Under the pieces are notes generated by a model. It did no database searches and was not told where the DNA came from. It worked only from the letters and a program-made list of their open reading frames with translations. Positions 23,278 through 26,185 of a stretch of 64,000 nucleotides of DNA are shown here, one piece after another; positions within the stretch are counted from its first letter, which is position 1, and each line of letters opens with the position of its first letter. Both the position numbers and the translations under genes were made by a program. Origin of the DNA: Burkholderia ambifaria (GTDB lineage: Bacteria > Pseudomonadota > Gammaproteobacteria > Burkholderiales > Burkholderiaceae); assembly GCF_001443045.1 (NCBI RefSeq), contig NZ_LKPJ01000006.1, forward strand, positions 23,058 through 87,057. The letters are read 5' to 3'.

Positions 23278-25452
23278 TCACGCGCCGCGCTGTTGCGCCT
23301 TGAACGCGAGCCGGAACCGATGCAGCAGCGGCTCGGTATAGCCGCTCGGCTGCGACGTGCCCTGCAGCGCCAGCGCGCACGCGGCCTTGAACGCGGTCGA
23401 CTGGTCGTAGCCGGGCGCCATCGGGCGGTAGTTCGGGTCGCCCGCGTTCTGCTGGTCGACGACGCGCGCCATCCGCTTGAACACGTCGAGCACGAACGCC
23501 TCGGTGATCACGCCGTGGCGCAGCCAGTTCGCGATGTGCTGGCTCGAGATGCGCAGCGTTGCGCGGTCTTCCATCAGGCCGACGTCGTGGATGTCGGGCA
23601 CCTTCGAGCAGCCGACGCCCTGTTCGACCCAGCGCACCACGTAGCCGAGGATGCCCTGCGCGTTGTTCTCGACCTCGCTCAGGATCTCGGCCTCGCTCCA
23701 GGCGGCGCGCTCGACGACCGGCACGGTCAGCAGCCCTTCGAGCAGTGCGTCGCGCTCGCTCGCGTACGGCGTCTTCTCGAGCTCCTGCTGGACGGCCTGC
23801 ACGTCGACGAGGTGGTAGTGCAGCGCGTGCAGCGTCGCGGCGGTCGGCGACGGCACCCAGGCGGTGTTCGCGCCGGCGCGCGGATGCGCGATCTTCTGCT
23901 CGAGCATCGCGTGCATCAGGTCCGGCATCGCCCACATGCCCTTGCCGATCTGCGCGCGGCCGCGCAGGCCGGCCGACAGGCCCGCGAGCACGTTGTTGCG
24001 CTCGTACGACTGGATCCACGCCGACGACTTCATGTCGCCCTTGCGGATCATCGGGCCCGCTTCCATCGCGGTGTGCATCTCGTCGCCGGTGCGGTCGAGG
24101 AAGCCGGTGTTGATGAACGCGACGCGCGCGGCGGCCGCGGCGATGCACGCGGCGAGGTTCACGCTGGTGCGGCGCTCCTCGTCCATGATGCCCATCTTCA
24201 GCGTGTTGCGCGGCAGGTTGTACAGATCCTCGATGCGCGCGAACAGCGTATCGGCGAACGCGACTTCGACCGGGCCGTGCATCTTCGGCTTCACGATGTA
24301 GATCGAGCCCGTGCGCGAGTTGCGCTTCGCCTTCAGGTCGTGCAGCGAGCACAGCACCGTGACGACGCCGTCGAGGATCCCTTCCGGAATCTCGTTGCCG
24401 TCGCGGTCGAGCACCGCGCCGTTGGTCATCAGGTGGCCGACGTTGCGCACGAACAGCAGCGAGCGGCCGTGCAGCGACAGCGTGCCGCCGGCCGGCGTCG
24501 TGTACTCGCGATCGGCGTTCAGGCGGCGCGTGAAGGCCTTGCCGCCCTTCGCGACTTCCTCGACCAGCGTGCCCTGCATCAGGCCGAGCCAGTTGCGGTA
24601 GAGCTGGACCTTGTCGTCGGCGTCGACCGCCGCGACCGAATCCTCGCAGTCGATGATCGTGCTGACCGCCGCTTCGAGCACGACGTCCTTCACGTTCGCG
24701 AGATCGGCGCGACCGATGGGGGTCGATGCGTCGATCTGGATCTCGAGGTGCAGGCCGTTGTGCTTGAGCAGGATCGCGGACGGCGCGCCCGCCGCGCCCT
24801 GGTAGCCGACGAATTGCGCCGGCTGTGCGAGGGGCACGACGCCCTTGCCGGTTTCGACGGCGAGCTGGCCGTCCTGCACGCGGTAGCGCAGCGCGTCGCG
24901 GTGCGAGCCGCTCGCGAGCGGCGCCGCGTTGTCGAGCACGTCGCGCGCGTAGTCGATCACGCGCTGGCCGCGCGTCGGGTTGTAGGCCGCGGTGCGTTCC
25001 GCGCCGCCGTCCTCGGGCAGCGCATCGGTGCCGTACAGCGCGTCGTACAGGCTGCCCCAGCGTGCGTTCGCGGCGTTCAGCGCATAGCGCGCGTTCGACA
25101 GCGGCACGACGAGCTGCGGGCCGGCTTGCGTCGCGATCTCGCTGTCGACGTTCGTGGTGGCTGCCGCGACGTTCGACGGGACCGGCACGAGGTAGCCGAT
25201 CTGTTCGAGGAACGCGCGATACGCGGCATGGTCGCGCACCGGGCCGGGGTGCGCGCGATGCCACGTGTCGAGTTCCTGCTGGAGGCGGTCGCGCTCCGCG
25301 AGCAGTTCGCGGTTGCGCGGCGCGAGGTCGTGCACCAGGGCCGAGAAACCGCTCCAGAACGCGGCCTTGTCGATACCGGTGCCCGGCAGTGCTTCGTTTT
25401 CAATGAACTGGCTCAGCGCTGGCGCGACTTGCAGTCCTGCTTGGTCGATCAT
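23278..25452 (-). CDS. glcB: Malate synthase G
   Basis: The 724-residue enzyme condenses glyoxylate with acetyl-CoA to malate in the cytoplasm. The length fits the monomeric G isoform (about 720-730), rather than the about 530 residues of isoform A. Recognisable segments include [19 protein letters not shown] with the catalytic acid region, and [14 protein letters not shown]. It is the last gene of the glcDEFGB order, where it uses the glyoxylate made by glycolate oxidase. It is separated from glcG by the nested inverted-repeat element at 25489-25778, which could affect its expression relative to the upstream genes. Confidence 0.95.
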
Positions 25453-25488
25453 CGTGATTCCTCCCGGGGAAAAATGCGCGCGCGGCTA

Positions 25489-25778
25489 GAGGGCCTGCTC
25501 ACGCTAATAACGGGCTTGCGAACGTGCCTTGCCGGCTGCAGTGCAAGAAGCAAGGAGCGCCGTTTGGCCGAGCCAAACAAGCGACGCGCGACGCCGCAAT
25601 GCGGCCGGCAAGGCACGTTCCCCTGATTGAAAAAATCCTTTGTGGGGCTGGCCACCAGAAGGGCCGATCGCTGCGTCATGCTCCTTGCGAATACGTCGAG
25701 TATTCGCTTCGTCGCAGTCCTTGCGCTCGGCCCTTCTGGTGGCCAGCGCAAGCCCGTTATTAGCGTGAGCAGGCCCTC
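25489..25778. repeat. 290-bp nested inverted-repeat element filling the glcG-glcB gap
   Basis: Perfect 32-bp outer arms at 25489-25520 and 25747-25778 enclose two internal branches. Branch one pairs 25520-25536 with 25604-25620 (17 bp) and contains a GTTTGGC/GCCAAAC mini-hairpin at 25562-25578. Branch two pairs 25647-25667 with 25727-25747 (21 bp) and contains GCGAATAC/GTATTCGC at 25687-25707. The branches start where the outer arms end, so the whole forms a three-way junction in DNA or RNA. It begins two bases after the glcG stop codon and ends 36 bases before the glcB start. No target-site duplication or protein-coding content is convincing. It may be a dispersed Burkholderia intergenic repeat or a MITE-like element. 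Confidence 0.85.
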
Positions 25779-25780
25779 CG

Positions 25781-26185
25781 TTATGCCGCGACGCTTTGTG
25801 TGCCGGCGCGGGCAATCTGCGCGTCCTGTTCGGACTTTACGCCAGACACACCGATCGCGCCTGCAATGCGGCCGTCCACCGTGACCGGCACGCCGCCTTC
25901 GAGCAACCCCGTCAGCGGCACGCTCAGAAACGCCGTGCGGCCACCGTTGATCATATCCTCATACGCCTTCGTCTCGCGACGGCCGAGCGCCGCCGCGCGC
26001 GCCTTGTCCTGCGCGATGCAGGCGCTGGCCGCCGACGCGCCGTCGAGGCGTGCGAACGCCAGCAGGTGGCCGCCGTCGTCGACGATGGCAATCGACACCG
26101 CCCAGCCGTGACGCTCGGCTTCCGCGCGGGCGGCGGCAAGCATGCGTTCGACATCGGCGAGTTCGAGTTCGGGTTTCGTTTTCAA
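25781..26185 (-). CDS. glcG: GlcG/HbpS-family heme-binding-like protein
   Basis: The 134-residue protein of the GlcG/HbpS (formerly DUF336) family is found in glycolate operons, with no established enzymatic role. The family signature is clear: V-S-I-A-I-V-D-D-G-G-H-L-L-A-F-A-R-L-D-G-A near residues 30-50, and G-G-V-P-V-T-V-D-G-R-I-A-G-A-I-G-V-S-G at about 97-115. It has no signal peptide. It sits 22 bases after glcF. Some relatives bind heme or cobalamin; the residues needed cannot be judged here. Confidence 0.88.
   Translation of the reverse strand: MKTKPELELADVERMLAAARAEAERHGWAVSIAIVDDGGHLLAFARLDGASAASACIAQDKARAAALGRRETKAYEDMINGGRTAFLSVPLTGLLEGGVPVTVDGRIAGAIGVSGVKSEQDAQIARAGTQSVAA

Follow-up and report, generated by a model that had tools for sequence, protein, structure and literature searches.

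A probable order-wide family of MITE-like, TA-inserting repeats in the Burkholderiales, with one copy between glcG and glcB

Among the closest described counterparts of the repeat considered here are the TA-flanked MITEs, and in the case of RUP an IS630 transposase has been proposed as the mobiliser (PMC2229807). IS630-family elements themselves, for example ISY100, duplicate the dinucleotide TA (PMC2170065). REP elements are thought to be moved by RAYTs, which serve as a model for spread by a host enzyme. It has also been reported that template switching between inverted repeats homogenises their arms and inverts their spacers (PMC8604942; also PMC8794818). The element between glcG and glcB can be placed with good confidence in an order-wide family of short, non-coding, non-autonomous, MITE-like mobile elements that insert at TA, with an IS630/Tc1-type enzyme in trans and template switching as the processes that we infer behind it.

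In the window, which is the whole 64-kb stretch of DNA that was analysed, the element lies between glcG (25781-26185, minus strand; NF007275, E 1.5e-45) and the malate synthase G gene glcB (23278-25452, minus strand; TIGR01345 and NF002825). The NCBIfam cut-offs are passed by GlcB, GlcF and GlcD, and the GlcG match falls below that of its family. The sequence-only reading had described a three-way junction here, and its geometry holds. The element begins two bases past the glcG stop codon (25781-25783, minus strand), the end of the gap used by insertions, and stops 36 bases before the glcB start. Its outer arms, or terminal inverted repeats, are 32 bp long and perfect: the glcB-side arm at 25489-25520 (plus strand, GAGGGCCTGCTCACGCTAATAACGGGCTTGCG) is 100% complementary to the glcG-side arm at 25747-25778 (minus strand), and equivalent arms bound the inspected copies elsewhere. 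Two perfect inner stems of 17 and 21 bp start where the outer arms end, sharing with them the coordinates 25520 and 25747. The first closes hairpin Y (25520-25620, plus strand), whose inner inverted repeat 25520-25544/25596-25620 pairs at 92% over 25 bp, and the second closes hairpin X (25647-25747, minus strand), where 25647-25671/25723-25747 pairs at 96% over the same length. From the fold and an alignment of 118 copies, Y has a variable outer stem, inner AAGGAG and GACG internal loops and the tip GTTTGGC-CGA-GCCAAAC. Hairpin X has AAGGA and GACG loop motifs as in Y, on the opposite strand, and a tip of the form GCGAATAC-N5-GTATTCGC (here GCGAATAC-GTCGA-GTATTCGC); both of the mini-hairpins that had been described were found. 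The linker between Y and X (25621-25646) is AT-rich here and takes the form of a CCCGAAGGG-type mini-hairpin in distant members.

A scan of the entire window for inverted repeats with perfect arms and a spacer of at most 320 nt returned the three of the element as the longest, the next best being 14 bp. As RNA, the element folds at -206.7 kcal/mol (z = -17), and none of 100 shuffles was equally stable. No Rfam family scored above its gathering score, and only weak miRNA-precursor matches, far below gathering, were returned. The hairpin model R1 reaches 121.7 bits at X on the plus strand and also matches Y on the minus strand (25.3 bits, E 0.0016); by this measure the two hairpins resemble inverted homologues of each other. 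An optional mini-hairpin of 26-28 nt (TCCCCCAAGGGGACTTCCTTCGGGGC or its complement) lies on either side of Y at L002, L127, L153, L159, L166, L170 and other loci, and a similar one is found in hairpin X of L172; the pattern suggests another small repeat that uses this one as its target.

The suggestion that this is a dispersed, non-autonomous repeat that gained the glc position is well supported by many copies at unrelated sites, by empty sites exact in length and by duplication of TA. The window's own genome (G000) has three full copies, partial half copies and two diverged ones. It also carries, at L023 (about 1489-1530), a solo palindrome, TTAGGGCCCGTTCCCG...CAGGCCCTAA, with the appearance of a copy that has lost its two hairpins and kept only the arms, now fused. 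Within Burkholderia, 51 of 65 species have at least one match, and many genomes have more than were scored. A covariance model built on hairpin X, in which 12 of 33 pairs have double changes, matched 66 of 299 genomes (9 of 25 genera) in a sample of the family and 50 of 399 genomes (31 of 158 genera) in a sample of the order. This search by itself reports hairpin X only, and the whole architecture was judged from folded loci; at most of the loci folded, arms, Y, linker and X are all present with different stem sequences. Relatives that were inspected measure about 265-295 bp and have outer arms and two hairpins alike, with stems largely different, and the named hosts are Burkholderia, Paraburkholderia, Caballeronia and Pandoraea. 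A reduced 1.7-Mb genome of the family has 11 X-hairpin matches, two of which lie about 700 bp apart in opposite orientation (L375; G092:C91, 98500-102500).

In G496, which represents a related genus from a different family, ten copies at unrelated sites are identical at 268-272 of 272 positions (98.5-100%; one aligned over 271), with ends TAGAACCCATTTC and TA on both sides in nine of the ten. Their near-identity marks these copies as a recent burst. Phages and viral contigs gave no match to the element, nor did an E. coli genome collection at blastn sensitivity, and plasmids gave none to the G496 element. No named Burkholderia family of such repeats was found in the literature, taken as open-licence PMC papers; as far as the searches reach, this is an order-wide family of the Burkholderiales without a name in those papers.

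The glc site is more often empty than filled. Of 30 Burkholderia genomes (own included), 26 have an empty glcG-glcB gap of 33-46 bp, and four have a filled one (G000, G033, G034 and G051). A fifth filled gap, in G021, was met among the dispersed copies, so the element stands there in five species. The copies of G000, G033 and G034 have flanks and orientation in common, and the interior of the G051 copy is reversed relative to theirs. The G021 copy has the junctions CG-TA[element]TA-AGCC, compared to CC-TA-AGCC in the empty form (CCTAAGCC). The G051 and G021 copies are separate insertions, and with 26 of 30 gaps empty the element is not ancestral at glc.

Comparison of filled and empty sites also indicates the mode of insertion. 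At L161, the filled site GGCCGACTA[GGG...CCC]TAGCGG corresponds to the empty GGCCGACTAGCGG, and at L111 GGTTTA[..]TAACC corresponds to GGTTTAACC; TA is duplicated in both. Not every site is exact: elsewhere the empty form may show a different base at the TA or a slightly different length (e.g., the sites of L067, L069 and L108, which lack a joint TA or are uninformative), and TA duplication, shown at some sites, is presumed for the rest. At the window's own site, a probable target TA (25487-25488) adjoins the glcB-side arm (CTA/GAGGG), and the glcG side is not clean. TA is present on both sides at 46 of 104 distinct sites, and 40 of the 46 fit YTAR, with outer bases C/G (that is, CTAG) at 22, T/A at 13 and T/G at five. 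Given the five T/G sites, the outer base seems to belong to the target and not to the inverted repeat. By these comparisons, the element inserts at TA, with a preference for YTAR/CTAG, and duplicates the TA. Tenzen and Ohtsubo reportedly found IS630 at CTAG in 1991.

Of 208 junction sides, 32 fall exactly at the TAG or TAA that closes a putative ORF (80 codons or longer), and ORF ends within 60 bases of junctions are about six times commoner than at random positions (66 vs. 11), where length and GC3 were the only criteria for calling ORFs. A stop codon is often part of a CTAG site, which is why many copies lie against the end of a gene, and this preference accounts for the place immediately behind the glcG stop with no need for regulation. 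The glcG-glcB copy would be one such insertion, made at the stop codon of glcG. Structured mobile repeats of the Burkholderiales come to lie at the ends of genes within operons. One terminator-side site is filled in eight species; five of them (L002, L051, L055, L057 and L104) agree in the orientation of the interior, and in the other three (L059, L105 and L142) it is inverted.

In the family, the two ends carry a perfect inverted repeat, which in Burkholderia usually ends in TAGGGYCTGTT, and next to it on the inner side lies a hairpin domain with conserved AAGG/GACG loop motifs. All 31 arm pairs are perfect in 78 of 111 distinct copies, even with 39 arm variants, and the mismatches comprise 15 G.U pairs of one strand and 21 of the opposite one, the remaining 28 being of other kinds. 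At arm column 25501/25766, 69 copies have A-T, 43 have C-G and two are mismatched, which is a double transversion without a wobble intermediate. The interior is inverted relative to its flanks at five of 15 sites common to several species. Perfect arms that are rich in variants and without strand bias, together with inverted interiors, are as template switching predicts: switching between the arms during replication would copy one arm onto the other and sometimes flip the interior, and such copying would keep the palindromes perfect while the sequence drifts. Copies in opposite orientation at one site could instead be separate insertions. In G009, the mutual differences of two IS110-bearing copies are mainly compensated outer-arm changes, which fits template switching or gene conversion. 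Compensatory changes, which the sequence-only reading had named as a criterion, do exist, but those in the outer arms include double transversions and lack a strand bias, and they fit homogenisation of the arms at the DNA level at least as well as selection on an RNA. The family shows that arm "covariation" need not mean selected RNA, and with its compensated changes, double transversions included, and same-site inverted interiors it is a natural data set for template switching.

Other explanations have to be weighed against this one. A very stable fold, a place between two same-strand genes and the existence of compensatory changes would suit a local structured RNA of the glc operon that regulates the level of malate synthase against that of glycolate oxidase. 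Such a role is very unlikely, given that 26 of the 30 glc gaps examined are without the element, that copies lie at many unrelated loci and that the orientation in G051 is opposite. The regulatory domain of the glc mRNA that the sequence-only reading had proposed fails as a conserved function, with close relatives lacking the element and filled gaps carrying both orientations; a conserved cis-regulatory RNA of glc is refuted since the position in the operon is not conserved. The glcG-glcB copy probably does make a large co-transcribed fold, and this insertion may possibly affect glcB expression locally, with no evidence of selection to regulate glc. That some copies adjoin terminator-like palindromes would suit an array of degenerate palindromes or terminators that was never mobile and was homogenised by chance, but empty sites of exact length, ends that are well defined and bursts of nearly identical copies leave this next to no credence, and the empty sites and the G496 burst refute it. 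It could also be supposed that the repeat arose by deletion from an IS110 transposon, with the transposase gene located within hairpin Y. In G009, two copies of 1.43 kb, nearly identical and at unrelated sites, indeed combine the arms and both hairpins with an IS110 transposase (PF01548, PF02371). However, a third G009 copy of the same IS110 is without arms, X or Y, its similarity ending inside Y, and other IS110 relatives in the genus are without the hairpins, which makes this origin highly improbable. The arm-less copy rules out IS110 as the parent unless it is itself a truncated derivative, and the IS110 boundaries fall inside Y; the third copy and the hairpin-less relatives thus identify IS110 as a passenger inserted into Y. 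This IS110-family element (318-aa transposase; L181, 931-1887, minus strand; L182; L223, 1501-2457, plus strand) has entered two repeat copies, at CTCCTT within hairpin Y, and one further site; the repeat is thus an IS110 target.

The hairpins raise a further alternative, a functional single-stranded nucleic acid (RNA or a ssDNA hairpin) that spreads by its fold, for example through a host-encoded hairpin-recognising enzyme. The AAGG and GACG loop motifs of X and Y are non-complementary and largely conserved. Wobble pairs are strand-biased, with 163 vs. 22 on one strand in Y and 94 vs. 23 on the other in X, and the favoured strands are those on which the loops occur. Conserved loop motifs and wobble bias are not explained by simple homogenisation. 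The loop motifs are likely, by analogy with transposon ends, to be binding sites repeated in each end, and a single-strand function is the main alternative. Spread by the fold would also account for the order-wide preservation of the fold despite stems of low identity, for loops that are largely conserved, for a wobble bias toward loop-bearing strands that is opposite in Y and X, and for the failure to find an autonomous copy. Against it, a small number of pairs in related copies (e.g., 25536/25604 and 25537/25603, with the doubtful pair 25677/25717) contribute most of the excess of wobbles, the outer arms are without clear bias (22 vs. 34), and duplication of TA suggests a DDE enzyme that works on double-stranded DNA. 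On balance, this reading is unlikely. A bolder form of it, in which the fold itself is the functional, selected part and a host-encoded factor of the Burkholderiales recognises the structure and spreads or tames the element, is similarly doubtful. The first hairpin met on either strand would then bear AAGG/GACG loops and wobble pairs, and insertion in either direction would let the transcript or exposed single strand present a like hairpin first. If true, the element would stand for a class of mobile elements recognised by structure and maintained throughout an order while their stem sequences are hardly conserved.

The MITE-like reading leaves the mobiliser to be supplied in trans. The element is short and has no transposase gene, and the only coding copies seen carry the passenger IS110. 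A scan of G000, G009 and G021 for paired ends at IS-like spacing and the IS630 loci examined yielded no autonomous element that shares the ends; the only IS-sized pairs in the three genomes are the two IS110-bearing copies. An IS630 transposase was undetected in 10 of 15 element-rich genomes, and among IS630 loci whose ends could be read none has matching ends. Their ends are unrelated, e.g., GTGTTCCGTCCCA, and the IS630 of element-rich genomes was rejected as parent on this account. An IS630-type element with ends GTGTTCCGTCCCA lies at CTAG in L233 (about 1372-2530), L236 and L237, and in L233 it adjoins the apparent end of one copy of the repeat, whose ends may therefore offer CTAG targets to a different element.

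A TA-specific DDE transposase of the IS630/Tc1 type would, by recognising the ends, move the element in trans. Such an enzyme is the best guess from TA duplication and CTAG preference, about as apt to be wrong as right. Both of these features are seen, as an IS630-mobilised element would have them, and ends matching a host IS630 are not. Three marks of a MITE are present: short length without a transposase gene of its own, precise terminal inverted repeats, and TA duplication with empty sites, which is clean at some sites and not at others.

The element has features in common with several described systems. YPAL/RU-2 of Yersinia is also mobile and palindromic, duplicates its target and has empty sites, but it lacks TA ends, its duplications are 3-26 bp, and a three-way junction is absent from its description (PMC2229807). 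REP/BIME and the CGTC/GTAG-tagged palindromes are likewise palindromic, intergenic and dispersed, and the CGTC type is without a known transposase (PMC3733652). REPs, however, are hairpins of 20-40 bp with unpaired GTAG/CGTC tags, whereas the element has 265-295 bp, long arms, a three-way junction and TA duplication and is therefore not a REP. TA duplication and CTAG preference are common to it and to IS630/Tc1-mariner elements (ISY100, PMC2170065), but it is without a transposase, and the Burkholderia IS630 seen has unrelated ends (GTGTTCCGTCCCA). ERIC is about 127 bp and enterobacterial, and the element, different in size and without an E. coli match, is not ERIC. With ERIC/IRU, RUP and Correia/NEMIS (PMC2229807) it has in common that it is non-coding and intergenic, with terminal inverted repeats, TA ends, target duplication and a stable folded transcript. 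It differs from them in being about twice the size, a three-way junction of long perfect arms and two long hairpins, in GC-rich hosts, with a preference for CTAG and no IS found with matching ends, and in having spread over an order with its fold kept and its stems replaced. In its target behaviour the element is an ordinary MITE; in its size, its three-way-junction architecture and its order-wide persistence it is an unusual one.
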